The notes beneath the pieces were generated by a model that saw only the letters and a program-made list of their open reading frames with translations, had not been told where the DNA came from and searched no databases. Shown here one piece after another: positions 1,389 to 46,202 of a stretch of 64,000 nt of DNA (position 1 is the stretch's first letter; each line of letters starts with the position of its first letter). The stretch spans positions 1,116,001-1,180,000 of the forward strand of contig CM065888.1 in assembly GCA_033439255.1 (NCBI GenBank), given 5' to 3'. Made by a program: the position numbers and the translations under genes. Origin of the DNA: Hericium rajendrae (Eukaryota > Basidiomycota > Agaricomycetes > Russulales > Hericiaceae).

Positions 1389-4300
1389 ATGAGCACAAAC
1401 GACCTCTTCTCCTTCCTCGACGAAGCGCCCCCGGAGGACACGATCGAGTCACCGGAAACCACCAACCATGATATGGAAGTCGATTCGGAACCTGCCCTGT
1501 CTGCAGGCCCGAGCACGAGCCGCGTGCCGCTCAAACGCAAGCCGGAGTCTCCGCCAGAGACACATCTGAACGGCCAAGACGGCATGAATGGCGTCGAGCC
1601 GCCTTCGGCGAAGAGGGCGCGCTCTGAGAGCCCTGCGCAGCAGCCGGTGGTAGTGGACGAGTTCGAGACGGAAGCGAAGCGCGAGGTCGCTGTGAGCGCG
1701 GGATTGACGGGTGCGGCGGAGACGGCGGGATCGCGGTTGGAGCTTAAGCATCAGGTGCGCGGGACATCATGCACACGAGTCTGTTTGGTTGGCCTCTGAT
1801 AATGGTTGTGTGATGCGGTAGGTGCGGCATCAAGTCGCTGTTCCTCCGGGATACGACTATGTCCCCATCTCGCAACACGTTCCTCCGGCGAAACCAGTGC
1901 GCGAATACAAATTTACGCTGGATCCGTTCCAGCAAGTCTCGATATACGCTATTCAACGAAACGAGAGTGTGCTTGTGTCTGCGCACACTAGTGCGGGGAA
2001 GACCGTTGTCGCGGAGTATGCGATCGCGCAGGCGTTGCAGAACAAGCAGAGGGTCATCTACACGAGTCCTATCAAAGTTAGTGGTAAAGTTTCTGGGAAG
2101 TGCGACGCAGTTTGCTAACCGTGTTAAACAGGCACTCAGTAATCAGAAGTACCGCGAGATGGAAGCCGAGTTTGGCGATGTTGGCCTCATGACGGGAGAT
2201 GTTACTCGAAACCCTACTGCATCATGTCTAGTCATGACTACAGAGGTATGTGGCCCTTTGCTTGCTATCAATTCACTGTCGTTTACCCTCAATGGTTACC
2301 TAGATTCTGCGTTCAATGCTCTACCGTGGTTCGGAAATCATGCGCGAGGTCGCGTGGGTCATCTTCGACGAGATCCATTACATGCGCGACAAAGAGCGTG
2401 GTGTCGTCTGGGAAGAGACCATCATTCTGCTCCCGCACAGCGTGCGATACGTTTTCCTCTCCGCCACCATCCCCAACGCGATGCAGTTCTGCGAATGGAT
2501 ATGCAAATCGCATGAACAACCTTGTCACGTCGTCTATACGGACTTCCGGCCGACGCCGCTACAGCACTATCTTTTCCCGGCTGGCGGCGAGGGTATATAT
2601 CTTGTCCTGAACGAGAAAGGTGAGTTTAGGGAAGATAATTTCTCGAAGGCGATGGGTACGCTGCAGGAGAGAATGGGAGAGGACCCGTCAGATCCTAGAA
2701 GTGGGAAAGGTCGGAAAGGGAAGTCGAAAAAAGGAGGCGATAAGAAAGGTAAGGAAGAAACATTGCAACACCTGGTAACAATCATCTGACCATCCACAGG
2801 CCCTTCGGATATCTCGAAAATCATCCGCATGATCATGCTCAAGAACTTTAACCCTGTCATTGTCTTCGCGTTTAGCAAGCGCGAATGCGAAGCCCTTGCG
2901 CTCACGCTCTCCAAGTTCGAGTTCAACTCCGTAGATGAACAAGCGTCCGTCGAGAAGATCTTCACCAACGCCATTGCCGGTCTCGCGCCGGACGACCGCG
3001 CGCTGCCGCAGATTTCGAACCTGCTCCCGCTCCTCAAGCGCGGCATCGGCATCCATCACGGCGGGCTGCTGCCAATCCTCAAGGAGGTGATCGAGATTCT
3101 GTTCCAGGAGGGCCTCATCAAGGTTCTCTTCGCCACGGAGACCTTCTCCATCGGCCTCAACATGCCCGCGAAGACTGTCGTCTTCACGGCCACGCGCAAG
3201 TTCGACGGGCGCGAGTTCCGCGATCTGTCCTCGGGCGAGTACATCCAGATGTCGGGGCGCGCGGGGCGTCGTGGACTGGACGACCGCGGTGTTGTTATCA
3301 TGATGTGCGACGAGAAGCTCGAGCCCGCTGCGGCTAAGAACATGATCAAGGGCGAGGCGGACCGGCTCGATTCGGCATTCCATCTGGGGTACAATATGGT
3401 GCTGAACTTGATGAAGATCGAGGTCATCAGTCCGGAGTACATGCTGGAGAGGTGTTTCTTCCAGTTCCAGAGCAGCGCGGGAGTTCCCCTTTTGGAGGAC
3501 GGTACGTCTGTCTTTGCTCGCTACAGAAACCTGTGATCTCACTATGGGCCATCGTGCAGAGCTCAAGAAGGAAGAAGAATTGAAGTCGAAGATTGCCATT
3601 CCGGATGAGGAGCTCGTCGCGGAGTATTATGAGTATCGCCAGCAGCTCGACCAGATGCGCGCGGACTTCCGCGACGTGATCACCCATCCCAGCTATAGTT
3701 TGCCTTTCCTTCAGCCCGGGCGACTCGTCAAGATCAAATTCAAGGATCTGGACTTCGGCTGGGGCGTTGTTCTCAACTACCAGAAGCGCCTTCCGCCAAA
3801 GGTACGTCTTCCATGATGTTTCCTTGGGATAACATCGCTCAACGTTCAGAACAGAATCGACCAGCGCCTGTACTCGATGAACTTCCTCCACACGAGCAGT
3901 ACATTGTTGATGTCCTGCTCAATTGCGCCTCGGGCTCTTCCGTACCGAAAGAAAAGGAGCGTGACACCCTGCTCGCGGTACCTGGTGGGGTCAAGCCCTG
4001 TCCACCAGGACAGAAGGGCGAGCCGCTTGCCATGCCAGTACTGTTGTCAACGATAGATGGCATCAGCCATCTGCGCATGAACTTGCAGAAGGACCTGCGC
4101 TCGCTTTCTGCGCGCGAGACGGTATGGAAGGGCGTGCAGGAAGTCCACCGGCGCTGTCCAGACGGGATCGGCATGCTCGACCCGATTGAGAACATGGGCA
4201 TCACGGATGAGAAGTTCAAGGCCCTTGTCAAGGTAATGATATGCTGTCTCCTCGATGTCGGGAATTTGCAACTGATAGTGTTTTCTGCCGTAGAAAATCG

Positions 4301-5156
4301 AGATGATGGAAAAGAAGATGTTTTCGAGCCCGCTACACAGCGATCCCCGGCTACCAGAGCTGTATTCCGCATATGCGCGCAAGCGAGAAGCACAGGACCG
4401 CATACGCGGGCTGAAGAAGCGCATACAGGCGACGCACGACGTGCTCCAGATGGAGGAGTTGAAGGCGCGGAAGCGTGTACTGCGCAGGCTTGGCTTCACA
4501 AATGCCGAGGACATCGTGGACATGAAGGGACGTGTGGCGTGCGAGATCAGCTCGGGCGACGAGCTGCTGCTGACTGAGCTCATCTTTAACGGCGTGTTCA
4601 ACCAGCTGTTGCCCGAGCAGTGCGCGGCTCTTCTGAGTTGCTTTGTGTTCACAGAGAAGGTGAGTCCATCCTCAGGTGACGTATGAGTCGGCTTGGCTTA
4701 CTGACTTCCTGGTGCAGAGCGAACAGCAGACGAAGCTCAAGGAGGAGCTGGCCGCGCCCTTGCGTGTGATGCAGGAGATCGCGCGGCGCATCGCCAGGGT
4801 GTCGAAGGAGTCCAAACTTCCGATCGTCGAGGAAGACTACGTGTCTTCATTCAAGGTCGAGCTGATGGACGCCGTCGTCCAGTGGTGTCGCGGAGCGTCA
4901 TTCGCCGACATCTGCAAGGTTCGTGCTCCGGCTTCATATCACCTCGCGACTGCAGGCTGACACCTCTATCCAGTTGACCGATCAGTTCGAAGGCAGCCTG
5001 ATCCGGGTTTTCCGCCGGCTGCAGGAGCTGATCCGCCAGATGACCCAAGCGGCGAAAGTCATCGGCAACACTGAGTTGCAACAAAAGTTCGAGAAGGCAT
5101 CCGAGATGCTCGAACGACCAAATTCCGTCATCTTCGCTTCGTCGCTGTATCTGTAG
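1389..5156 (+). CDS. MTR4: Exosome-associated RNA helicase Mtr4/Dob1
   Basis: Ten exons can be placed: 1389-1754, 1822-2076, 2132-2245, 2304-2748, 2800-3501, 3560-3801, 3855-4232, 4294-4659, 4718-4918, 4974-5156, giving about 1,083 residues, the usual Mtr4 size. The first ~120 residues are low-complexity and acidic. Helicase motifs: Walker A AHTSAGKT (~176-183), DEIH box (~267-270), 'SATIPN', and motif VI '[12 protein letters not shown]' (~545). The C-terminal half carries the long arch/KOW insertion ('[12 protein letters not shown]') and the DSHCT domain ending 'FASSLYL'. In yeast and animals Mtr4 is a 3'-5' helicase of the TRAMP complex that feeds RNA to the nuclear exosome (family knowledge). 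The start at 1389 opens the first in-frame exon. A lysine-rich insert lies at ~375-394. The gene looks intact. Confidence 0.95.
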
Positions 5157-5439: not shown

Positions 5440-7952
5440 TTAGCAGGCACCGCCATCGGTCCACACGTCCGCTGCCAAACATCAGTTAATGATATTTCTA
5501 TCTCGAAGATTAGGGATACACACCTGATCCGCCGGGAGTGTCGCCCTGCGTCCACCACTTCGCAGTCCACAGATGACCGTCTGCAAAGGTATCAGTCCGG
5601 AAGTACTTGTAAATGCAGCACACGAGGACTTACTGTAAGTCGCGGTTTGACCGCCAGTAAACACAGCCTAAAGCGGACGGAAAACGTCAATTCAAACCCG
5701 GTCAGAAATATAGAGAGGTCTACTCACTCCTGCGCTCCACGCTGGGACGCCAGCGCACTGGCCGCCCGGACCGCCGGTAGGGCCAGTCGGCGCAGAGGTC
5801 GTGGTCGGAGACGCGCCGCCCATTTGGTTCCGGATGTTGTCCCACTTGCTGTTCGGGAAGCTAGATCATGCATAGTCAGTCACACCGGACATCCATATTG
5901 GCCGAGAATACGTACTTGATATGGTTCTGTCATGGGATTGTGGTCAGCCTGCGAATGTACGGCGCGTGAAGGAGCTGCTCACCTCGGTCTGGTCGAGGTT
6001 GCCGTATACGCCGTGGATCGTGCCGACGAGCGAGTCAGCGCCCACTTTGTCGGTCGACAACTGTCGGCGCAGATAGCACGTGTCAGGAGGAGGCAGTGAC
6101 AGGCAATGGCCATGAAGCGCTTACATCCCAGTACATGGACCCAGCCATCCCGTTGTCCTGTACGTACTGCGCCTTGAGAGTCGCGATGTGGGGCGTATCG
6201 TACGAGACGAGCTCCTGCGATGCCGAGTCGTACGAGTAGCTTGAGACGTCGGTCGTGTTTTCGAACACTTGGGCGCCGGCGATGGGCAGCACCTTGTACG
6301 AGTAGATGCCAGCCTGGATTGTCCCAGGGCCAATCTAATGCGGAGATCGATATCTGCGATGACAAGGAGGAAGATGTTAAACTTACTCCGTCGTACGACT
6401 GGCCGAGACCTGCAGTTTTCTCGAAGGCGCGGCCATACAGCGGGATACCTGCGTAATGTGAGGACATGGAAGGTGGATCATGTGTGTTTGGCTTCTCACC
6501 CATCACAATCTTGTCTGCGTCTGCGCCGGCAGACTTGAAGTACTTGACAGCCGCATCGGTGTTCACGCCAGTACGCACGCCATCGTAGAGATTGGCTTGG
6601 TTGTCAGACTGAGACATACGAAGGTTAGCTACACGAAGTGAAATGCGCTGTAAGAAAAGCTTACCCATGTCAACCAGGAGCCGGCATAGTCGTATGCCTA
6701 GAAATGCCGTCAATACCCAGAGGCGAGCGACGCCAACAGAGCTGGTCGTACCATAAGATTCCAGTAGGTCAAGGCGGAGTTCATCTCAGGCACCACGAGA
6801 TTGGCATAGTTCTCGGGACCGGCGGAAACAGCAGCCTGCGTAAGGTTCGAGGGTTAGTCAAGTCGGTCAGTGTGAGAACATGGGACATACGGTCAGTTGG
6901 TAAGTTGTAGAGTCGCCCTTCTGCTGCGCCAGGTTATCGAAGGCGGTGCGAAGCTCAGAGTACAGATCGGCGAAGCCTTGGCCTTGGGCATCGTTCGCAG
7001 GGTATTCAAAGTCTAGATCGCTAGTGACGTACGCTCCTTAAGCATGACACGTAATAGTACTTAAAAGATTGGAAAGACGTACATGCCATCGAAAGCGTAG
7101 TCCTCGATAAGCTGAACTGCACTCTTCACGAACGTCGCGCGGAGGGAAGCGTCGGTGACAAAGGCGAAGTGACCGCTTTGTGAGTACGTCCAGCCTCCGA
7201 CGGAGAGGAGAACTTTAAGGTTCCTGGGAGAAAGCTCGGTCAACGGTAACATAGAAGAGTCCTGTGAAGTAATATTACCTATTAGCTAGTTTGAGGAGAT
7301 ATAACTACTCGCGAAACTTCAGTGATGTGGATTTGCACGTATGGAGAGCGGATCCTACCTGCTTCAAGCAACCATAAAGGTTGTTTCCTGGCTCGTCCCA
7401 TGAGTCACCGGGGAAATGTTTCTACAGTAGAAGAATCCACCATGAGCTCCTGGAGAGGAAGGAAAGGGAGATTCGGGGGGTCCTTACTTGCTCGTCAGCA
7501 TAAGAGTCCGTCAGGCTGATCGTACCGGTGGTCGGCGAGACGTCGGCGAACGAGTACAAGATGTGCGAGAGCTCCGACGGGATGATATCGGTAGGCTCTG
7601 CGTGCAGGAAACAATTAATCCTTCAATGACAGATTGCGAACCATAAACAACGCACGGAAGTTGGCGCCATAGATACCCCTTCGAGTCAACAGAGGGTAAA
7701 CACGCCAATAAGAAAAACATATTACGACTCGAGAACTCACCAGTTCGTAAAGTACCCAGCGTTTACCTTTGCGCCTGAACGCCGTTGTATGATATGGGGC
7801 TTCACGTTCGTCTCCGTCTTGAACTCATGGGGTGCATTCTTGTAGCCCGCCGGACGCTGCATGACCTGGGTCGCATTGACGATCGCGACTGCCGCAAGCA
7901 AAACAGATACCAGAGCACATAGACGATTCAGCAGGGAAGTTGTCGTCGCCAT
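5440..7952 (-). CDS. Secreted GH18 chitinase with C-terminal CBM5-like domain
   Basis: Minus-strand gene with about ten short introns. It starts at 7952 with a signal peptide (hydrophobic core [15 protein letters not shown]). The GH18 barrel follows: '[12 protein letters not shown]' (beta3 strand), then the catalytic DxxDxDxE motif read across an intron as DGM/DLDFEYP, with the last Glu as proton donor; then 'AYDYAGSWL', '[16 protein letters not shown]' and 'GMAGSMYWD'. A Gly/Pro/Thr linker leads to a C-terminal chitin-binding module with '[18 protein letters not shown]' and the final VWTDGGAC. It should hydrolyse beta-1,4-GlcNAc in wall remodelling, mycoparasitism or nutrition; which one is not visible here. 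All pieces are in frame once introns are removed, so it looks functional. It converges with MTR4, the stops being 283 bases apart. Confidence 0.9.
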
Positions 7953-9459
7953 AGTGTAAGAAGCTGCGAGTGCGCCTTGGGAGAGGAGAAATCAGCAGCT
8001 AGGAGCGGTGTCCGACCACACAAGAGTGCATCTGCGTCCTATTTGTACTCAGACCAATGCCAAGCTGGCTACTGGACAAGATGGAGATGGCTCTAGGCGT
8101 GATAGTCCGATTCGCAAGGGAAATCCAAGTGCCAGCATGGTTCATCGTCAGGAGCAAGGGGCGGGAAGATGGGTACCCTAGAGTTTGCAGCTTGGCCCAC
8201 TACCGCAGAGGACAAGCATACTAACGATAGCCGTGGCCATGTGCTGCGTGTCAAGATTAGAACGATGCAGTCCATCACCGAATGAACGCAGAGCGTGGTA
8301 TCGTGAAGAAGGACGGTCAGCCACATGGATACAAGGCAGCAAAGAGTCACGTACCCGGCGTCGCTGAAAAGAACCAGTTGGCTGACGTGGCGGGTCCGTG
8401 TGGGATAAGCGTGGATCGAACTAAGCAAGACAACTACCCCGTCAACGCCTCGCAGTAACGATCGTCTGCGGAGGTTGTGAACATCGCAACGAGAAGAGAA
8501 GAGCGGTGTAGGGCTATAGAGGCGGGCTGCCGTCTGGAAACCGTAGCACGTTGCTTTCGCCCAGGTACGTCCAAAACGACAATCTGACGCCTGGCACATG
8601 GCATACATAGCGATAGCAGAGCCACGGACTCACCTCGGCAGACCGACCAAAGCAAGTCGCCACAAGAGCTTTGGAGCAGAATACGCAGCATGCAGCACAG
8701 ACGCCCATGGCAGCCAACCCGAAATATCGATCTTCGAGAGGCCGATAAGAATGCAGCTACCCAAATAGTCCCAAGCTGCACCGTGCAAGTAACGCTTGTC
8801 GAATAGAGATTGATAAAGGAGATCCTCGACATGCCTCCTGCAGGAAAGGAGTACGAACATCGGATACGAGCTCGCGTGGTCCCAACGGGTCGCTGATCTG
8901 TTCCACGTGGAACGATTCATGCGAGCGCAGTACCTTGCTGGCACGACAATCCGCGAGAGGGTACAATCGAAATCGAGGCCGACATTCCATCTACGGAAAG
9001 ACTTCCATCGTCGCCAGGGAGGAAAGTCTTCCCAAACGTCAAGATCCCGCTATAGACTGTGCGAGAGATCGAGAGGATGCTTCTGGAATCGAAGTCCTTG
9101 CCTCCGACGGGAAGGCAGTCCGTGCGAAGGCATAGATATCGCGATTAGTCTGTCTAAGAGCTCAAGCTCGCACATGCATGCGTCTCGTCACCAAAAACTT
9201 GGGTGAGCACTTAGTGAATGCAATAGATAATTTATGATTGTCCGATTGCTTTTAGGCATGAAATCTGCATCATGTTTATAGAACGACTGAAGTCAGATAT
9301 CATTGCTCCTCGATTGGTGACAAAAGGTTATCGGCAGACCTTTTATTACCTCTTGATGGTCTACCTTGACTGGAGCAGCGTATTCAGCTGCTTCAAGCGA
9401 ATCAAAGAGATGGATCGATGGCGCAGCAGCTCGACGAGCAGTGGAGAAGGAAGGAAGGA
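7953..9459. other. No supported gene between chitinase and KDZ element
   Basis: This stretch has several overlapping medium-length reading frames on the minus strand (8093-8608, 8630-8944). Two are hydrophobic in patches, but none joins into a convincing spliced protein and none matches a family I recognise. The first ~200 bases are probably the chitinase promoter. A remnant of a membrane-protein gene is possible but not shown. Confidence 0.4.
9449..9459. repeat. Possible target-site duplication, left of KDZ element
   Basis: GGAAGGAAGGA directly abuts the left inverted repeat, and the same 11 bases lie directly right of the right one at 18039-18049. The sequence is a (GGAA) microsatellite, so the true duplication may be shorter (8 bp is reported for Zisupton elements) and slippage could mimic it. 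Confidence 0.5.
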
Positions 9460-9673
9460 CACCTCACCTTCCCACACTTTGGCCTTAGTTAAGGTGGACG
9501 GCTCGGTAGGGCGTCGGCCTTCATCTAGGCCAGACACCCAGATTCCCCCTTAGGATTTTAGCTCAGGTTTTATCGTCCGACTTGGAACATATTTTGCTGC
9601 TCCCCACTGTATGTTTAAGCATATGTTTTCTGTCATTCGGAACGGAGGTCGGGGGCCTCGGCATCATCCCGGC
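9460..9673 (+). repeat. Left terminal inverted repeat of the KDZ element
   Basis: Begins CACCTCACCTTCCCACACTT and ends CATCATCCCGGC. It is repeated in reverse complement at 17825-18038 with one G/A difference, in the stretch CTTGGAACA versus CTTAGAACA. It contains no convincing coding sequence; the same short translated tail (ending DTQIPP) appears in both copies only because they are copies. Confidence 0.9.
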
Positions 9674-9940
9674 ATCGCTGATCCGATCCGTACTCTGGAC
9701 CGCGAGGCTCATAGATTACGTAATCGGATTGACTGTCGACAAACCTGCTTCATGGGCGCTACATTTCGGAGGACTTCCGGGAGGAACCGGGTGTGTAGGG
9801 AGAGATCATGATCACATGATCCCTAGGACTGCATATCGTGTAGGAGTAGTCAAGCAAGCTATGGCATTCTGGCGGTATACACTAGTAACGACTGAGCTCA
9901 GGAATTAAGGGATAATGTCACATAGTGAATAGGAATTGTG

Positions 9941-11874
9941 TTAGTATGGCATATCATAACTCGGAGGCAGAAACGACAGCGCAGGATCCAAGAAATACTG
10001 TGGATCGGCCTGCGCGTATTGATCGTTGAGGAACGGCATCAAATCGCTGTTCGATGGGAAAGGATCTTGAGGTCCATCGTCTTCCATGAATGCCACCAGA
10101 CTATCCCAGTTGCCAGTCGGCCTGTCCGCAATGCGGCTGGGGCCTACGAACGCATAAGATCATTGCACATGAGGCAAAAGGACGATAGCGTACCGGCAAT
10201 CTGTTGTTGGCTGGAGTCCCATGCAGGCGAAAGCAGGAAGTTGGCTGCTGCCTCACTCGCACCAGGGCCGAACGAATTCTGCGCCGTCGCTTCGAAGTCC
10301 TGCGCTCTTGTCGTTGTCTTCGCACGTTCGGTGAGTGATCGCGCTTGATTCTCCTTGTCGATGTCAGCACCGAGCATACCTGCCTCCTCCTCTGCCTCCT
10401 CCTCTTCCTCCTCTTCTTCGTCAGAGGAGGTGATGAATGGCTTGCTTTTCACCTTGTAAGAAGCGCCCTTAGCCGCGCGAGAAGCGCTGTTCGTCGTGCG
10501 AGAACTCTGCTTCGATTTGGCGCCGGCATCGTTGGATGGCATGTCGTCCGCGCGCTTCTTCCCTTTGTCGCTGCGAGTCTTGCGAGGGGGACGCGGTGGT
10601 ATCTCGCCCGACGAGATCTTTTCTATGTATTCCTTATCTCTCTCGAGAAACTCGTCCTCTGATACCTTCTTCCAATAGGTCTTGCCATCCGTCCACGACT
10701 TGAGAAGTGTTTCGCAGTCCTCGATTCCGCTGCATGCAGTTGTCGGCGCCGCGAACTGAATCCCTTTCGGCCATCCCTCGATCACTACAAGATGCTCTGC
10801 GGCGATCGTGTTCCAGTAATTGGCCCACTGCTTCATTCGTAGGTTGGGGTCACCGGTCGCTTCGGCTACGGACTTCGTAAGTAATTGCTTGTACGAAATA
10901 TCTTGTGCGCGACTAACCGAGTTTGGCGTCGACGATATCTCGAACCGCCTGTCTCAGCTGTGTGACTTTGGTATGACTTTGCCCAGCCCCTTTGAAGTGA
11001 GGTCAGCACTGTAACAACCATCGGAGCACACAGCACACTCACCTTTTAATCCCTGCACAGCAAAGCCTTCAAGTTTCGACACGAAATCTTGTAGGTCCGT
11101 CTTGAAGATATGCGGTATGAAATTTGCGACCTTCTCGGTTGCGAATTCCAACGGCTTGAAGTTGAACTCGCTAGTCCCGCGTGTCGCAAATACCAAGAAC
11201 TCGACCCCAGTGCGGGCGTTCAAATTGGTCAACTGAAGCGAAGGTAAGTCCAACGAAATAACTCGAGAACCACGATACTTACTTCCTTCTCAATTTGCAG
11301 AATAGTGTGTATGGCATCGTTTTGCTTCGAATTATCTGTACCCCATTCGCCGACCTTTCGGCTTTTCTTGTAAGCTTCGAATTCCTTGACGAGAGCCTTC
11401 CTGTCGTCCTCCTCTAACTCTTTGTATTTCTCTGCTGAACTTCGCGATAGGGCACCGCTCACCAAATCCTCTTGCTTCATTGGATCTAAGCAGGGATGAG
11501 ATATATGAGTACGGGCATCAAGCAGAAAGTTCAGTGGTTAATGTACCTCCACTCGCGCGTGCTTCCTGACCCATTTTCCAGCCGAACGCGTGCCATGCGT
11601 TCGTTTTCTCATGCTTGCCCCGCGCAAACTGACTTCCACCCATGTGAACAGCCTGTTCGACTTTCGCCAGTGACTTCTGGTGCGTCGTTGCTGCTTTCTC
11701 GCATCTGGCTTTTATATCAGCAGTGATGTCTGCCAGCTCCGTGGTGTACGCGTTGCTAGCTTCTTTGCGCCTCGCAGCGACTTGCTTTCGCGCCTCCCCG
11801 GATAGCTTTGCTCGAGGCTTATGGGGGACGTGATCTTGCGTAAGTTTCGCATTTTTGAACCTGACGACAGGCAT
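9941..11874 (-). CDS. HMG-box-like protein, KDZ cargo gene
   Basis: Minus-strand gene with several short introns, starting at 11874 (MPVVRFKNAKLTQD) and ending at 9941 (SYDMPY, stop). The N-terminus is basic (KPRAKLSGEARKQVAARRK). The segment 'NAWHAFGWKMGQEARA', followed after an intron by 'YKELEEDDRKALVKEFEAYK', has the spacing and residues of a divergent HMG box (inference). The middle has 'RTGVEFLVFATRGTSEFN' and 'FKTDLQDFVSKLEGFAVQG', then 'MKQWANYWNTIAAEHLVVI'. The tail is basic then strongly acidic (a run of Glu at ~10405-10440) and ends in a Pro/Asp/Phe-rich segment that could be an activation or interaction region. I know similar proteins only as unnamed Agaricomycete sequences. Lying between the element's inverted repeats, it is presumably carried as cargo. 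Confidence 0.7.
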
Positions 11875-12341
11875 CTGTAACGCGCATAATGCAGTGAGCC
11901 AGCAATCAATATTGACGAAGAGATGCGGCATACAAATAGGATATATGGTGCACCGCGGCCTTAAAAAATCCCCAAGGGTTGGGTATAGAGGCCTCCACGA
12001 CGGGAAAGGAGGGGAGGAAGGAAGGGGGTATCTGGGAGCTCAAACTGACGGCGACAACAGTCGCTCGAGTGGGAGACAAGGCAATAAATTATGACCACGT
12101 GATATTTCCACTAGTAAGCATGTGCCTCTACTACTCTATGGACACTACGAGCTGACTATGAAATCAAACTACAGTTTGACGAGACCAGTGGGTATGTGTA
12201 AGAATATCTACGACAATTTATGCAGCCAAAAAAAGTGCTAACAACATAATCAAGCAGCTAAGTGAAATCATGAATGCGCTATACTCGAGACACCTCGAGC
12301 GACGTTTTATAGAATGCTAACGGGGGCGCAGATGAGCTAAA
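11875..12341. other. Intergenic spacer inside the KDZ element
   Basis: No gene recognised. It separates the start of the HMG-like gene from the 3' end of the middle cargo gene and probably holds the promoter of the former. An alternative upstream ATG at 11931 would lengthen the HMG-like protein by 19 residues. Confidence 0.5.
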
Positions 12342-13808
12342 TTAAACAGTACAGATTTCACAGAAAATACCACATACCGCCGGTCCTACGACTTCCACCC
12401 CGACCCTCGCAGTTCCGCCGGCAGCCTTGTCGAGTAGCAGAGCGGCGGCGGCGCTTGCAGCTACCGGATAGTCAAAACCCCAGACCTTTTCCATCACCGG
12501 AATCCATTGCAAGCTCGGGACGTTGTTTGACAAGTCGCGCAACGGCTGCGCCCACTTGTCGGACAATGCGTACCGCGCCATTGCTTCCAGCGTTTGAGGG
12601 CCGAGATCAGCCACAACACCTTTCGCAATAGCGGGTTGGGTGTTTGTATTACCCTCAGTTTCTTCCTCGCCGGTGTCGACAGGGTTCGAGAGCGGCTCGT
12701 CTGATGCGTGTGTCGGGAGGGTGGTAATGAGTTCGGGGTGATTGACAAAGATCCCCGGCAGTGGCTTTTGCCCAGCACGACGACGAGGGGGAGAGGGTAT
12801 GTCATCGGACAGGTCCTGGCTTTGTGCGGGCAATCCGTCGCGTTGAGGTGGCGAAGAATTGCTGCGCCGGCGATGTTGATGTTCTGTCTTAGCAGGACGG
12901 CGCATTCCCATTTTTCGGAATGCTTGCTCAGCGCTTGAGGTGTCTTCGTGGTGTAGGGCCTCTTTAGGATCGGCGCGGATGTCAAACAAATGGTCTGAAG
13001 GAACGATACAGTGGGATTAAGTCTTTCTGGGTATAAATCAAAGCATAAAGCACGCACCTGCAGTCTGCTTCCTCGCTGACCCCTTTCTATCCATCAGAAT
13101 ATGCTCCATTTCGCCCGGTGAATGACAGATGAACTGGAGTCTTGAAGAACCACGTGGGTGAGGGAGAGGAAGAGCTGTTGTCGCTAGACGCAGGCGAGCA
13201 TCGGGGCTTAGCATCCTCGCCCGGGTGACTTCACTGGGTGGTAATGGTAAGCCGGAAGCCTCTCGATATGTCTGGACTCGCTGAAGATACGGTAGCGCAA
13301 TGTCCTCAGCGAAGAGTTGCACCATCTCGGCAATTGGATGTGCCAGAGACTCTCGGTGATGATTCACTTCTCGTGGCGGTAAGTAGGCATCGATTGTTAT
13401 GTTGTCGGCACTGATTGGAGTTCCCGCGGGAAGAAAACCAGGTACATGCAAGAAGATGGAGAACCCCGCATCAATGCGGTCCAACGTTGTGATCTACGCA
13501 AGCGCATGAGACACGGTGCCAGGCATCCAGATAGGAGTACGTACAGCATCCAAGGCATCGTCAAAGGTTTTCCATACAACTCCGGCCTGAGAGTCCTTTT
13601 CTCCAGGACGGCGAGTGTTGGTTTCTTGATAGAGATCAATGTACGAGGTGTGTAGCCCCCCGCCGCTCAGTGAATGATGCAGGTCGTCTTTATGCGCTCC
13701 AATGCGAGCGTACGCTCGCGCTATCGCATCTGTTGTAAACGACAGTGAGTTCGTTTCCTTTTTCAATCGAGCAAAGGTTGACGGAAGATATGAATAGCTG
13801 TTAGACAT
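12342..13808 (-). CDS. Unknown protein, middle cargo gene of KDZ element
   Basis: Three or four exons on the minus strand, from 13808 (MSNSYSYLPSTFARLKKE) to 12342 (GIFCEICTV, stop). The second block includes 'GFSIFLHVPGFLPAGTPISA' and 'EVNHHRESLAHPIAEMVQLF'. The third is polar with Arg/Ser/Pro-rich stretches (12780-12900), followed by a conserved-looking C-terminal block 'WIPVMEKVWGFDYPVAASAA'. I do not recognise the family; no catalytic motif, membrane segment or zinc site is evident. Its position between the transposase and the HMG-like gene, and on the same strand, suggests it travels with the element. It might be an auxiliary transposition factor, a silencing-evasion factor or captured host sequence; nothing in the sequence decides. 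Confidence 0.6.
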
Positions 13809-14223
13809 GATGACGAGACGAAAGAATGTGGATGGAGTTGAGAGATGATAAGAGGTGCAAGACGGAAGTGACAATATTTACAACTCGTGCCAGCCTTTTA
13901 GATCTTACTAGTGCACGACGCAACGCGGCGCCACTAAGTTTACTGCACATACGTGCGTCGCGTGATATCTACCTTACATTCAAACCTTCCCCCCTCCATG
14001 CATTCTGTCTTATTTACTGGATATACATATTGTCGCTGGCTTGCTAGCAGTCCTACTTATCTTGTGTCTATTTATCACACTTCGAAATACAAAATGTCGT
14101 TAGCTATGTACACAGTTTGAGTCAGGCGCAATCGAGCACTAAGCATCGAGATGTCGACATAAACTACTTGTCGATGCCGACTGCAGACTCGGATCACATT
14201 ATAATATACCATGTATTATGTAC
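13809..14223. other. Intergenic spacer inside the KDZ element
   Basis: AT-richer than the flanking genes, with no reading frame worth calling. It contains the presumed promoter of the middle cargo gene and the 3' flank of the transposase. Confidence 0.5.
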
Positions 14224-17200
14224 CTATTCGTTAATAGTATCTACGAAGTCCGTAAAAGCTTCAATGTCCTCTGACAAGTCACCTTCTTGGAGGACATCGT
14301 CATAATTCTCCTCCGAATGTACCATGCGAGCTTGTAACTCGTTTGCACCTTCGTCAGCTCCATTGCTCGAATTCAGCTCTCCTGAATCTGTTTGAGAGGT
14401 ATCTTGCACTCGAATACCAAGATCGCGCCTGCCTGAAAAGCCCGGCATCGCCATCACGCGCTGTAGACGATGCTCATGTAGCGCATTAATGGCGCCACGC
14501 AGTGCCCATCGCCTTCGAAGCTCACTTGCGAGCGGTGCATCTGTCGCTTCCATACGTGATATTGCAGATGTGTAGTCAACCGCTTCTTGATGAATTGCGG
14601 TGCGCAGGCGTCGGAGTTCGACATTTAACCTCGAGATCTCCTCGCGAGCACGGGCCAACTCCAGATGCTTTATGGTAAGAGCACGATGTGCGGGTTTGGC
14701 CCAGTCTTGACTTCGGACATCGGTTCGCGAGTCTCGTAACAGATCGAACTCGCCCAGGAAACTGTAGTCCACGATTTCCTTCCAGGACAGTGATGGGCGC
14801 GGCGGGACAAGTCTCTGTGCCTGCGTGTTGTAACGCGAAAGCGCAGTTCGAATGGCATCAGAGCGGCGCTGGAGTGCCTTGGCGATATGTACTCGAAGCT
14901 TGTAGCCTGAGAATGAAGTCAGTTTCAAGCCGACTACAGGTCACAGCCAAACAGACCTGTCCCGGATATATTCAACTTTGACAGCTCGAATAAGCGCTGT
15001 ACGACGAGCCGCTCTAGTTCGTCTAGCGCTTTCCTGTAGGCTCGATGTGTTGCATCCTGTTTGACCTGTTGGTACTCTGCCGTATTCTCATCCCATCGCT
15101 CGCTTTCGAGATCGAGCTGGTTCTCGAGTAGTGTAACATGACTTTCTCCGTTTTGTAGACGGGTCAGAGCTGTCCGTACTTGGCGATTTGCCTTCTTCAT
15201 GTCACTATGAAGAGCGGGCGTGGCAATTTGGTACCGTAGCTTGTCGACAGCCGCCATCGCAGCTGACCAGTCTGAGCTACAAAGCAAGAAGTCAGATCAA
15301 ACAAAGACGGAAGGAAGCCCGGCAGAACACTTACCGATAGACATTGAGCTTGTCGAGGGCTTCGATATAGTCATATTTGAGGGTCTCCGCGACAGGTTCC
15401 TGTTTGAGGCTACTGAGATACTTCTTTTCGGCAGCGAGATACTGCTCGAAGTTGGCATCTTCAAGCCCGAGTTCGACTTTCTTGGTCTCTATCTCTTGAG
15501 GATAGTCAACCACGACTGTCAGAGCGTCGCGATAATGATTAAAGATGAAGCGACCTGGAAATATCTGTCAGTGTTCAGGTTTAACATGCCAAGATCTGAA
15601 TACGTACTAAGCGTGGCATACTTGTCTTCGTCCCAGAAGGCGAAGTGTTGCTCAATAGCCTGGTGGCGATGGAAGCGCGTAGCATGACGGGTCAACGCGG
15701 CGACACCATTGGATGCAGAGAAGACGCGCTCGCATCCTTCAAAATTTGCGCGGCCCATGCCTGATACATTGCGAGGATGCCAATCCGCCTGGCAGAGTGC
15801 GTTGTGGCCATAGCCATGGAAGCTACCTAGAATGAGTCGGAAACGCTGGTCGCTCGCCAATTGTCCAATCGAGCTTCCGGCGAGGGTCTTAGAAAATGCG
15901 CACGCGATGTCGTATCCGCAGACAATGTCGGGGCCATATATCTCTATCAGCTTGTTGACCAACGCGAGCGGGTACTTCGCGCTAGGATACTTATGCATCA
16001 GTATAAGCAATGAGATCATAGACATTGACTTACAGCTCGCCACTGCGTACCATATCGCAGATGATAAGTACGTGACCGTGCCTGCAGGATACCAAGAAGA
16101 TGCCGCATTCTGCATACATCGAAAACATGCGTTTGCGCTCTTCTGGTCCTGCATTCTTCCAGCGCTCGATACACGTAGCTACAGGGTCATTATCGTCGTC
16201 ATTGACCCAGTCGCCGTCCCCGTCGGCGCCAGCAGTAGGAAGACGCCCTTTGCCCTGACTCTGTTTGTCCGATGTCAGTGGCTGGCATTCATGGGCCTAC
16301 GACGAGACTGAGCATACCGCGTGAGATTTTACTTCGTCTTTGAAGACGTCGACTTCTTCTGGTGTGACCCAATAGTCCGAACGAGGTTTTCGAGAGTCCA
16401 AGCGATCGAGCAATGTGCGGTATGTGGCATCAGTGCGCTTGAGGGAATTATTGCCGTCCATTTCACATAGAAAGGAGTATTCAAGGGACTCCTCATCTTC
16501 AAGGCGATAAAAACATGGTGGGCAGCAATTGAGGTTTCGCCAGTTCGGCGTGTCGCGCTGCAAGACCTTGCTAACCCGGAGATCCACTTGATGCAAGATC
16601 TCAAGATAGATGTCGTATGCGATAGCGAATTGCTCGCTCAGGTAGCGGCGGTAAGGTATCTATGTAAGATATCAGCCTCTGGGAATGCTTCACAAAGTCC
16701 CGATGACTCACATTATGAAGATGGCACAATGTTCGAACTTGTGCCTGTACACTGTACCGAGGGGAGGTCCGGTGAGTCTGGCGATACAGCTCCAGCGTTT
16801 GGATCGTAATCGCAACTGTTGGATGAAGCGGCGCTGATCCAAGATATCCGTTTCGAAGCAGGGTGACGTTCGGCCAAACATCGTCTTGCTCTATTGTTAG
16901 TGTTCGCAATCCACGCTCTGCCATATAAACCAGGTCAGCAATGCTCTATAGGTTCAAAAAAAGCGCACCATATGTATCTACGAGCTCGATCTCGAGCTGG
17001 TTCCCACCAATCTCCTGCTCATCGTCTAGACGGCTACTTGATGTTGATGCTGTGCTTGGTAAACCCTCCGCAAATGCAGAGGTTGTCGACGTGCTTGGCT
17101 CCTTCTCCTTGGAATGATGCCATTGGAGATAGGCATCAGTTATCTTGTCTATCTGCACATCCCAATGCCTGTTGCGAACTTCAACGCGGTCGCGGCGATT

Positions 17201-17675
17201 GCGGTAATCGTGCCGTTGTCTGAGGGCAGGAAGATTGTCAGTTCACGGTAAAGACACAGCTAGCCGGCATACCTTCCAGTCATACTCGCAAGGTCTTCTG
17301 CAAATGACTCGAAAACCTCAAATTCTCCGCCTTCGTGGCTCATATCGAAGCCTTCTTCGCCAGGCGGCATGGTCTGGAAGGCGGCGGCATCGTTGCCTCC
17401 CTCGTCGTCGTCATCACGGATCGGGTTGTCAAGGTCCATTTGCTCGACAAGGACCCGGTCACTGCTGCACATGGCTGTTTGGATAGGTGGTTAGATTGAC
17501 CTAAAACATCCAGGTGGGTCCACTCACATGCTATAGCATCTGCGCGCTGCACCGCCGTTTCGGATTTGCGCTGAGCCTGCAACGATGCCTTCAGGACGGT
17601 CTTTGTGATCCCATTGTTCGCCCTGCGATGCGAGACTGATGAGCGGGACAAGCCTTTGTATCGTTTACCTGACAT
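14224..17675 (-). CDS. KDZ (Kyakuja-Dileera-Zisupton) transposase
   Basis: Large multi-exon minus-strand gene, about 900-1,000 residues, from MSGKRYKGLSRSSVSHRR at 17675 to 'DFVDTINE' at 14224. The N-terminal part holds a CxC-type cysteine cluster ('NLNCCPPCFYRLED', ~16510-16530). The RNase H-like catalytic core follows: 'FLCEMDGNNSLKRTD' gives the first Asp, 'GPDIVCGYDIACAF' the second, 'HGYGHNALCQADWHPR' is the conserved His/Cys block, and 'FEGCERVFSASNG' gives the catalytic Glu. The C-terminal third is a long coiled coil rich in Leu/Arg/Glu with an acidic tail. These are hallmarks of the KDZ transposases described in basidiomycetes (family knowledge). All exons read through, so the enzyme may be active. 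An upstream ATG at 17750 is possible, but the downstream start gives the usual basic N-terminus. Confidence 0.88.
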
Positions 17676-17824
17676 ATTGGCTGTAGGACATATGTTCACT
17701 TCGCTCGAGACGCGTCTGCTGCGTTCGTTTAGGGTCACGTGCACTGTCAATGATCATTTGATTGATTGATCAACCGGGGGTACCTCTAGAGTCTAAATAA
17801 TCTCCTCGGTCCGGATCAATTCAC

Positions 17825-18038
17825 GCCGGGATGATGCCGAGGCCCCCGACCTCCGTTCCGAATGACAGAAAACATATGCTTAAACATACAGTGGGGAGCA
17901 GCAAAATATGTTCTAAGTCGGACGATAAAACCTGAGCTAAAATCCTAAGGGGGAATCTGGGTGTCTGGCCTAGATGAAGGCCGACGCCCTACCGAGCCGT
18001 CCACCTTAACTAAGGCCAAAGTGTGGGAAGGTGAGGTG
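17825..18038 (-). repeat. Right terminal inverted repeat of the KDZ element
   Basis: Reverse complement of 9460-9673 with a single difference seen by eye. It lies 149 bases beyond the transposase start codon, so it probably overlaps or adjoins the transposase promoter, as in many cut-and-paste elements. Confidence 0.9.
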
Positions 18039-18049
18039 GGAAGGAAGGA
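18039..18049. repeat. Possible target-site duplication, right of KDZ element
   Basis: Same GGAAGGAAGGA as at 9449-9459, immediately outside the right inverted repeat. Low sequence complexity limits certainty. Confidence 0.5.
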
Positions 18050-18210
18050 AGTATATTCCGCAGCGGTCCCAATAAGGAACATAGCGGCCCGCATGCCGAG
18101 TAGCCAGGCACAGACTACATACTGACATGCGTATCGTGTAACTACTCCGATCACTGCTCAGGGAGACAACATAACCAAAAATCAGTAAATGAAAGACAGA
18201 GAAGAAAGGC

Positions 18211-18352
18211 CCGATGAAAAACCCATGCCCGGAAAACCTTCTATAAGGAAAAAACCGTGACTATGGGAAAACCGGGCCCACCCGATGAAAAACCCATACA
18301 GGGAAAACCTCAGGTGAGGAGAAAACCACTGCAATGGGAAAACCAGGTGAAG
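18211..18352. repeat. Two-copy 71-bp tandem repeat with GGGAAAACC motifs
   Basis: The motif CCGATGAAAAACCCAT begins at 18211 and again at 18282. Within each 71-bp unit, GGAAAACC-like motifs recur three or four times. The units are imperfect copies. No coding function is apparent. Confidence 0.65.
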
Positions 18353-19552
18353 GATATGCATCAACCCTGAGCAATGTCCATAGCGACACGCTTGTGAGCC
18401 AGCAGCTCACGACGAGACAAGGACCAACACACCGGGGGATGACCTGCACTGAGGGATGGACTGCCAATGGCCATGCAGTCAAGAGCTCCGTGACCTCCAA
18501 TGCAAGGGATAGTGGTCACAGTCGAGCACGGCATGCTCGGGTGTTCGGATGGCTTGCCAGCAAAAGCCGCATAAGCACCAGCCGTGCATAACACAGCAGT
18601 TGATATTGCAGGCGGGCAAGCGGGCAATGGTCAGAGAGCGGCAGTCACATTAGTGCGACGTGGGAAGCAGGTATGGAAACCCGGAGGTATGGCCGGAAGA
18701 AGAAGACGGTGTGGATGGGACATTCTGCGTGACAGACAAGCTCGGTGCGGCCATGAAGGAACATTGCAGAGGGAGACTTGTCGAGAGTAGTGCTGCAGTA
18801 TGCCAGCTGTAGACGGCGATATCGGAGCGGCTCGAGCTGAGTATCAGTAAACAGGGAAACCAGCGGGGAGCGCCACGATAGACCTAGCAATCGGCGCCGA
18901 AACATTATATTAGAATACATCCAATGGCGCGATAAGGCCAGCGTCAATGTCAGAGAGAATGCCGCGACCACGAAGGAAGTGAGGGACAACCTTCGCAGTG
19001 TATAGGATACAGCCCTGCCAGACAGGCAGGGAGCCAATGAGGTCACTTAGTGCGAAGGTGATATTCCCCAGATTACGCGCCTTCTGTGCCTTAGGAAAAT
19101 AGGAAAACAGTGCGGTAGGAATATGTTGCACTTTGTCGAGCACGAAGCCAGAGGTATATGAAGCAGGCGGGGACAGCAAGCATTGCTCGGAAAGCGCATG
19201 TAATGTCCGTACAGGGAAAGCGTGTGCAATGTCCGTACAGAGCGTGTCGGCAGAGCTTCTAGGAGAAAGGCATCAAATAAAACACGCACAATGACAGAAT
19301 TGAAATTGGCAAAAAACAGAATCAGGTCGGCGAGCGATACGGTACATGAGCAACCCGCGGGACGTCAGAAATAGGAGCGTTGGCCAACAGGGGCGCAACA
19401 AGGGGCATGGCCGGTATGGTACACAGGACACGTAGAGGCCACACATCCAGAAAGACAGCGCGGACGACAAGGTGCAGCAGGAGCGTGTAGAGGTAGGCAG
19501 ACCGGCGCCGCCAGCGCGGGGCTCGGGGCGGCGACGTGACGTGTCGTGGTAT
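18353..19552. other. Gene-poor stretch with only fragmentary frames
   Basis: Several medium-length minus-strand frames overlap here. The longest sensible one (about 18910-19179, with 'FALSDLIGSLPVWQGCILYT') has no recognised family and no clear splice partners. The short string TGTCCGTACAG recurs at about 19203 and 19231. It is best read as decayed or repeat-derived sequence next to the KDZ insertion. Confidence 0.4.
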
Positions 19553-19975
19553 GGACTCGCAGAGCAAGTGTGTTCATCAATGAACCACCGAATCGTGGGA
19601 TGGCCCATGCGGACTCGCGGAGCGAGTCTATTCCTCAACATATGAGCCTGAGCGACGGCCTGAGCCCTGTCGCGCACGTCCGAATCGGACTCGCAATGCA
19701 AGTCTGTTCCTCAACGTGTGGACTGGCAGCGTGAGCATCACACAGCCAATGGACTCGCAGAGCGAGTCTATTCCTCAACAACATCTCCCCGGAGCGGCGG
19801 ATTACCGGAGCGAAGGCTTGAGCACTGTCGCGCATGTCCCAATGGGACTCGCAAAGCGAGTCTGTTCCTCAACGTGTGGACTGACAGCGCAAGCGTCACG
19901 TAGCCAGTGGACTCGCAGAGCGAATCTGTTCCTCAACGACATCTCCCTGGAGTGGCCAACTGCCTGAGCGACGGG
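19553..19975. repeat. Hairpin-forming tandem array, six units
   Basis: Six copies of a 28-29 bp core begin at 19553, 19611, 19687, 19751, 19845 and 19909. Each core has GGACTCGC-nnn-GCGAGTC (a short perfect or near-perfect inverted repeat, able to form a 7-bp hairpin with a 3-base loop) followed by TRTTCCTCAAC. Spacers alternate: copies 3 and 5 share a 64-bp unit with GTGTGGACTG, while copies 4 and 6 share spacer sequence beginning ACATCTCCC. The higher-order period is thus 158 bp. No protein-coding reading is consistent across units. Confidence 0.8.
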
Positions 19976-45362: not shown

Positions 45363-45371
45363 TGGCGGCTA
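45363..45371. repeat. 9-bp target-site duplication, left
   Basis: TGGCGGCTA here is repeated exactly at 46194-46202, directly flanking the inverted-repeat element. Confidence 0.85.
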
Positions 45372-46193
45372 GTGAATGCAATCCTCCCAACGCGTTTTCG
45401 GTCGCTTTGGGGCACGTGACCGACGCGCGTCGCGCCAACTTCCTTTTTGGGTTGCGTCGCCTTTGCCTTCGCGTCGGGCGCCCCTCGGGCGAGGACTTCG
45501 ACACATTTTTTCGTCTATTTCAGCGGTAATAAAATCAGATAAAATCGAGAGAAATCATAGAAAGGTGAAGACATGCTACTGTAATCACTGGGCAGACAAG
45601 TTCAGAGATTCAACCCATCCTTTTACCCTAACTAGTGTAGTTTGTGAATGTAAAGAGTCAACCCATCTTCTCAGTAGCCAGAGGGACAATTTAAGTACCA
45701 AGGTTGGGGATGGGGTAGAATGACATGATCTTGGGCATATCCTGACAGCCAGGCAAACTTGATCACCATGTACAGACCATAGAAGTGTGTTTGAAGCTGT
45801 ATAACATGCAGCAAAGTCAGTGGGATGCAGTCAGGGTCCTACACATCTATCACAGCTCAATCTTGGCACTTAAATTGTCCCCTCTGACTACTGAGAAGAT
45901 GGGTTGACTCTTTACATTCACAAACTACACTAGTTAGGGTAAAAGGATGGGTTGAATCTCTGAACTTGTCTGCCCAGTGATTACAGTAGCATGTCTTCAC
46001 CTTTCTATGATTTCTCTCGATTTTATCTGATTTTATTACCGCTGAAATAGACGAAAAAATGTGTCGAAGTCCTCGCCCGAGGGGCGCCCGACGCGAAGGC
46101 AAAGGCGACGCAACCCAAAAAGGAAGTTGGCGCGACGCGCGTCGGTCACGTGCCCCAAAGCGACCGAAAACGCGTTGGGAGGATTGCATTCAC
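45372..46193. mobile_element. Mutator-like fold-back (TIR-MITE) element, 822 bp
   Basis: Two arms of about 335 bases in inverted orientation (45372-~45708 and ~45858-46193) surround a ~150-base centre. Outer ends are GTGAATGC...GCATTCAC. By eye the outer ~300 bases of each arm are essentially identical; differences appear only near the inner ends (for example CAGTAGCCAGAGGG versus CAGTAGTCAGAGGGG). A 9-bp duplication TGGCGGCTA flanks it. Long inverted repeats plus a 9-bp duplication are the signature of Mutator-like elements. There is no transposase, so it is non-autonomous. The 110-115-codon open frames in both arms are mirror images of one repeat, not two genes. It looks recent. Confidence 0.85.
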
Positions 46194-46202
46194 TGGCGGC
46201 TA
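46194..46202. repeat. 9-bp target-site duplication, right
   Basis: Exact copy of TGGCGGCTA at 45363-45371. Confidence 0.85.

Follow-up and report, generated by a model that had tools for sequence, protein, structure and literature searches.

An apparently intact, probably recently inserted KDZ-superfamily transposon of a fungus, with long terminal inverted repeats and two further genes

Introduction

The KDZ transposase is a DDE-type enzyme with an RNase H fold. Bounded KDZ elements of fungi are already described, and three of these, KDZ1 (about 11 kb, with 241-bp terminal inverted repeats, TIRs, and 8-bp duplications), KDZ2 (9.2 kb, 139-bp TIRs, 4-8 bp duplications) and KDZ3 (10 kb, 169-bp TIRs, 4-8 bp duplications) of Cryptococcus neoformans, are reported to be mobile, with insertions into a reporter gene observed (PMC12810828). 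In work on Marasmius oreades, a TIR motif was characterised for KDZ and Plavaka elements, and element boundaries were set by duplications (PMC8290104); a separate study of transposon activity in Marasmius (PMC9674265) does not mention KDZ in its main text. Kojima 2025 (PMC12730594) gives complete TET-carrying KDZ families from several fungi, with an 8-bp duplication for Zisupton and for one Dileera family, and describes two Kyakuja families of Laccaria bicolor (Kyakuja-1_LB and Kyakuja-2_LB) that have a 7-bp duplication, 5'-CA..TG-3' ends and no TIRs, and that encode a TET/JBP dioxygenase. Accessory genes are said to be frequent in fungal KDZ elements, and KDZ elements reach 30 kb in algae (PMC12477816).

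We describe here a KDZ locus in a 64-kb window of fungal DNA, the window being the whole stretch that was analysed. The original prediction for this locus held that KDZ elements are usually seen as scattered transposase genes, so that a bounded copy would fix structure, cargo and target preference; bounded and even mobile fungal KDZ elements are already in print, and the present element is therefore of an already known kind.

Results and discussion

Element ends and flanking direct repeats

An inverted-repeat search of the window found two inverted arms of 214 nt each (Table 1), which differ by a single mismatch at position 9584, just as had been predicted. The element between the direct repeats outside these arms measures 8,579 bp (9460-18038) and its termini read CACCTC..GAGGTG, giving the CA..TG ends that are also described for the two Laccaria Kyakuja families (PMC12730594). 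Those families are described as being without TIRs, in contrast to the 214-bp repeats found here; TIRs are reported for Zisupton and for the Cryptococcus KDZ elements, and the present element is similar to the latter both in size (about 9-11 kb) and in having long TIRs (139-241 bp; PMC12810828). The Marasmius oreades KDZ elements are likewise mushroom elements with TIR motifs and with ends set by duplications (PMC8290104). Searching the window with the terminal 23-base pattern, with up to 3 mismatches allowed, returned 2 sites in 64 kb, both of them the element ends, and 0 in 100 shuffles. No 14-mer of the arms recurs elsewhere in the window, and the 25-base TIR end had no match in viral contigs, where fungal DNA is not expected.

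Directly outside the arms lies the direct repeat GGAAGGAAGGA, which occurs 2 times in 64 kb when both strands are searched. Both copies sit within a low-complexity GGAA tract, and because of its period of four the flanks agree over 11, 7 or 3 bases, not over 8. An 8-bp target-site duplication, as described for Zisupton and one Dileera family (PMC12730594) and for Cryptococcus KDZ1 (PMC12810828), is ruled out here, as the flanking 8-mers differ (AGGAAGGA versus GGAAGGAA). A 7-bp duplication (GGAAGGA on both sides), together with the CA..TG ends, agrees with the two Laccaria Kyakuja families (PMC12730594) and would fall within the 4-8 bp range of KDZ2 and KDZ3 (PMC12810828), with 11 and 3 bp being equally compatible with the flanks. 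The duplication is most likely 7 bp within the GGAA tract. The matching direct repeats that had been predicted outside the arms are thus present, in that GGAAGGAAGGA abuts both arms, but a length of 11 bp is indistinguishable from 7 bp in such a tract; nor do the defined ends fix a target preference, as had been hoped, since a single copy cannot do so. For a duplication of 11, 7 or 3 bp, the empty site is predicted to hold 3, 4 or 5 GGAA units, respectively.

Table 1. Positions of the element features in the 64-kb window
Feature	Position	Strand	Description
Left flanking direct repeat GGAAGGAAGGA	9449..9459	.	target-site duplication of 11, 7 or 3 bp
Left terminal inverted repeat	9460..9673	+	214 bp, starts CACCTCACC
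Gene C	9941..11874	-	555 aa, 6 exons; hand-made model, coding signal
Gene C exons	11547-11874, 11283-11485, 11043-11232, 10918-10989, 10194-10865, 9941-10143	-	
Candidate region of protein C resembling a GTF2I (TFII-I) repeat	10744..10960	-	aa 251-305, split by intron 10866-10917
Gene B	12342..13808	-	450 aa; exons 13545-13808, 13058-13493, 12342-12994; hand-made model, coding signal
Gene A, KDZ transposase	14224..17675	-	990 aa, 10 exons; hand-made model and Pfam
KDZ domain of protein A	15630..16479	-	aa 330-576; span worked out manually from the aa positions, with introns
Right terminal inverted repeat	17825..18038	-	214 bp, 1 mismatch versus left arm
Right flanking direct repeat GGAAGGAAGGA	18039..18049	.	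target-site duplication of 11, 7 or 3 bp

Three genes between the arms

Manual gene modelling, guided by GT-AG signals and the reading frame, gave three intron-containing genes, all on the minus strand and all without a frameshift or internal stop. Together the models hold 16 introns (9 in gene A, 2 in gene B and 5 in gene C), all GT-AG and 50-63 bp long; as the splice sites were picked by hand to keep the frame, the open frames are partly so by construction. A codon table trained on gene A was applied to the six frames of genes B and C, and the coding signal of both was confined to the modelled frame, with scores of 0.047 for gene B (other five frames at most -0.234) and 0.189 for gene C (other five frames at most -0.024). 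The GT-AG introns, the open frames and this codon signal bear out the three same-strand genes that had been expected in 8.6 kb. A scan of 9000-18500 against Rfam gave 0 matches, and 0 tRNA genes were found in the 64-kb window.

Protein A carries a KDZ transposase domain, matching the Pfam KDZ family (PF18758) with an E-value of 1.8e-77 and 260.3 bits (cut-off 26.6). The match spans profile positions 1-217 of 217, as would be expected with all the predicted catalytic blocks present, and D337, D483 and either E540 or E543, located as motifs in the sequence, are candidate residues of the acidic triad. N-terminal to the KDZ domain there is a match to CxC1 (E 0.0061, 17.1 bits) which is below the Pfam cut-off of 26.9, and this CxC1-like stretch (aa 191-248) is without cysteine, whereas the transposase of Cryptococcus KDZ1-3 has a CxC1 domain (PMC12810828). 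TET/JBP cargo was dropped as a candidate, with no Pfam match to such a domain up to E 5 in proteins A, B or C, a difference from the TET/JBP-encoding Kyakuja families (PMC12730594). Searches of the KDZ exon against viral contigs, where fungal DNA is not expected, and of the transposase C-terminal ORF against prokaryotic genome contigs yielded no confirmed relative.

A candidate GTF2I-like region in protein C

Vertebrate TFII-I (GTF2I) has six I-repeats, to which a role in protein interaction is ascribed and which lie next to a basic region that binds DNA (PMC8155576). The first 100 residues of protein C are basic, and its C-terminal part has a glutamate run and an acidic tail. Two Pfam entries were returned for the protein, both below cut-off, and the GTF2I entry (PF02946; E 0.15, aa 252-307, 12.9 bits versus a cut-off of 27) was outranked by DUF4113 at E 0.03, as could be expected if the resemblance arose by chance and protein C were an unrelated, lineage-specific protein. 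A search of aa 1-384 against the PDB, up to E 10, returned 3 chains, of which 2 were GTF2I repeats (2eje, E 0.4; 2dzr, E 1.2) and the third a bHLH protein (4h10, E 1.1, aa 18-60), which likewise suits a chance match. When the query was trimmed to aa 242-347, all 3 matches up to E 10 were GTF2I repeats (2eje, 0.055; 2dzr, 0.17; 1q60, 1.4), a uniformity that speaks against chance, although none of the E-values from either search is significant alone.

Against a profile of five GTF2I repeats the region scored 15.7 bits, a score reached by 0 of 20,000 shuffles of the region (best 9.2 bits), and when spliced proteins A, B and C were ranked with the GTF2I profile among 1,049 stop-free segments of the window, spliced protein C came first (E 0.022) and an ORF of the same protein C exon second (E 0.12). 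With hhalign, the region scored 33.3 against GTF2I (probability 88%; 62% for whole protein C), whereas none of 300 shuffles exceeded 23.5 and the score was no more than 13.3 for protein A, protein B, the N-terminal part of protein C and the reversed region. In this alignment aa 251-305 cover the 52 profile positions of the repeat, with 35% identity to 2eje, and 9 of the 13 columns that are invariant across the five GTF2I repeats are kept in protein C, as counted by eye. The shuffles, the ranking and the hhalign controls all argue against chance. In favour of chance, whole protein C reaches just 10.7 bits against the five-repeat profile, and a single-sequence structure model of the exon-5 fragment, of low confidence (pLDDT 44.8), has helices and no strands, the first expected helix being encoded in exon 4 and so absent from the fragment. 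As the region was picked from the first match, the later GTF2I tests are not independent of it, and the support for the resemblance is suggestive only. We regard a chance match as the less probable reading, with some weight of its own, and judge from the sequence comparisons that the region is probably GTF2I-like, while not a match to the curated family: TFII-I has six repeats, and protein C would have one weak copy, below the Pfam cut-off.

Two other candidate matches in protein C were set aside. An HMG box at aa 79-166 found no support in Pfam, where no HMG family was matched up to E 5, and the PDB gave just two seryl-tRNA synthetase chains (E 6.9 and 9.4) for it. A match between a viral contig and 97 aa of exon 5 consisted of 19 residues of the lysine-rich end and was judged to be chance.

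Because the I-repeats of TFII-I are protein-interaction domains that lie beside a DNA-binding region, the role of the protein C region could be contact with either DNA or protein. Protein C is possibly the new aspect of this element, and a whole-word search for literature joining GTF2I with fungi and transposons found none. In mammalian GTF2IRD2 a transposase is fused to I-repeats, but there it was a hAT element that joined a repeat gene (PMC10641963). A speculative proposal, which we hold to be rather doubtful at present, is that a fungal KDZ lineage has, encoded beside the transposase, a protein of its own that is based on a TFII-I repeat and contacts DNA or transcription factors. If it were true, the I-repeat would be placed in a mobile element outside vertebrates, and a shared origin of the vertebrate TFII-I repeats and a transposon-encoded accessory domain would be suggested; if the I-repeat is real, KDZ biology would gain a DNA- or transcription-related partner. 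The long TIRs, the non-8-bp duplication, the cysteine-free CxC1-like region and protein C may together mark a distinct lineage.

Accessory genes or captured host genes

Protein B had no Pfam match above cut-off (best DUF6295, E 0.074) and nothing in the PDB up to E 10, and a single-sequence structure model of its exon 2 was of low confidence (pLDDT 56.4). Since Pfam gives neither protein B nor protein C a match above cut-off, to a transposon-related family or to any other, and captured TET/JBP genes are found in some fungal KDZ elements (PMC12730594), genes B and C could be ordinary host genes that a KDZ element has taken up as true cargo, and not accessory genes of its own. We think this less likely, as both genes lie near the transposase, on its strand and with open frames, and protein C has a possible transcription-factor-like region with basic and acidic ends. 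Accessory genes are also said to be frequent in fungal KDZ elements (PMC12477816), which by itself does not separate accessory from captured genes.

With accessory genes as the preferred reading, the transposase would bind the long TIRs and mobilise the element at its CA..TG ends, and the element would be joined to a staggered target cut, most likely of 7 bp, in the GGAA tract. Protein C would then probably be a nuclear accessory protein, contacting element DNA or the host transcription machinery through its TFII-I-like repeat and acidic tail, and protein B an accessory protein of unassigned fold.

Nature and age of the element

The ends, the KDZ domain, the spliced open frames and the flanking repeats support what had been proposed for this interval, a whole KDZ element, apparently young, that has long TIRs and holds two genes besides the transposase. 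On this sequence evidence it is very probably a fungal DNA transposon of the KDZ superfamily, autonomous and recently inserted. Its CpG content gives no sign of decay: the observed/expected ratio is 1.08 within the element, compared with 1.11 on the left side, 0.95 over the 4 kb on the right side and 1.14 over 22000-64000. One mismatch per 214 bp, three open frames and this CpG ratio suggest a recent insertion; the arms may have been homogenised by gene conversion, and their similarity is therefore not proof of youth. It is highly improbable that the arms stem from an unrelated event (a non-autonomous element pair or a segmental inversion) and just happen to enclose a KDZ gene: only one copy was seen and the window holds a second long inverted pair, but 0 of the 3 gene models overlap the arms, the right arm being 149 bp away from the transposase start codon and the left arm 267 bp away from the gene C stop, matching direct repeats flank the arms, and the arm length is within the TIR size range of the Cryptococcus KDZ elements.

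For a fungal KDZ element in which no TET/JBP gene was matched, the locus provides precise ends, models of three genes and a clear prediction of the empty site. The element could be used to search for families and in an activity assay.

Surroundings of the element

When the flanks were joined (up to 400 bp from each side), stop-free stretches across the junction reached at most 96 aa, and all 7 of the ORFs that were scanned up to about 4 kb away from the element were without a Pfam match; no host gene appears to have been broken by the insertion. Pfam matches at E 0.01 were found for 7 of 20 further ORFs of the window, comprising an MTR4-type helicase (2 pieces), a GH95 enzyme, a P-type ATPase (2 pieces), a zinc-binding dehydrogenase and a piece of a vacuolar ATPase E subunit just under the cut-off. 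Taken with the short introns, these matches indicate a fungal source, possibly a mushroom-forming basidiomycete, a group with similar KDZ proteins. The pieces of the MTR4-type exosome helicase gene lie at 2790-4577 on the plus strand, and a minus-strand ORF at 5979-6785, with no Pfam match at E 0.01, reads by eye like a chitinase fragment.

Two tandem copies of a 67-71-nt unit are found just to the right of the element (18210-18347), and a 158-nt unit is repeated in tandem at 19646-19971 (2.1 copies). The second inverted repeat of the window, at 45365-46200, has arms of 321 nt (3 mismatches) and a loop of 194 nt, without a clean flanking direct repeat, and is a candidate for a fold-back or MITE-like element or for an assembly palindrome.
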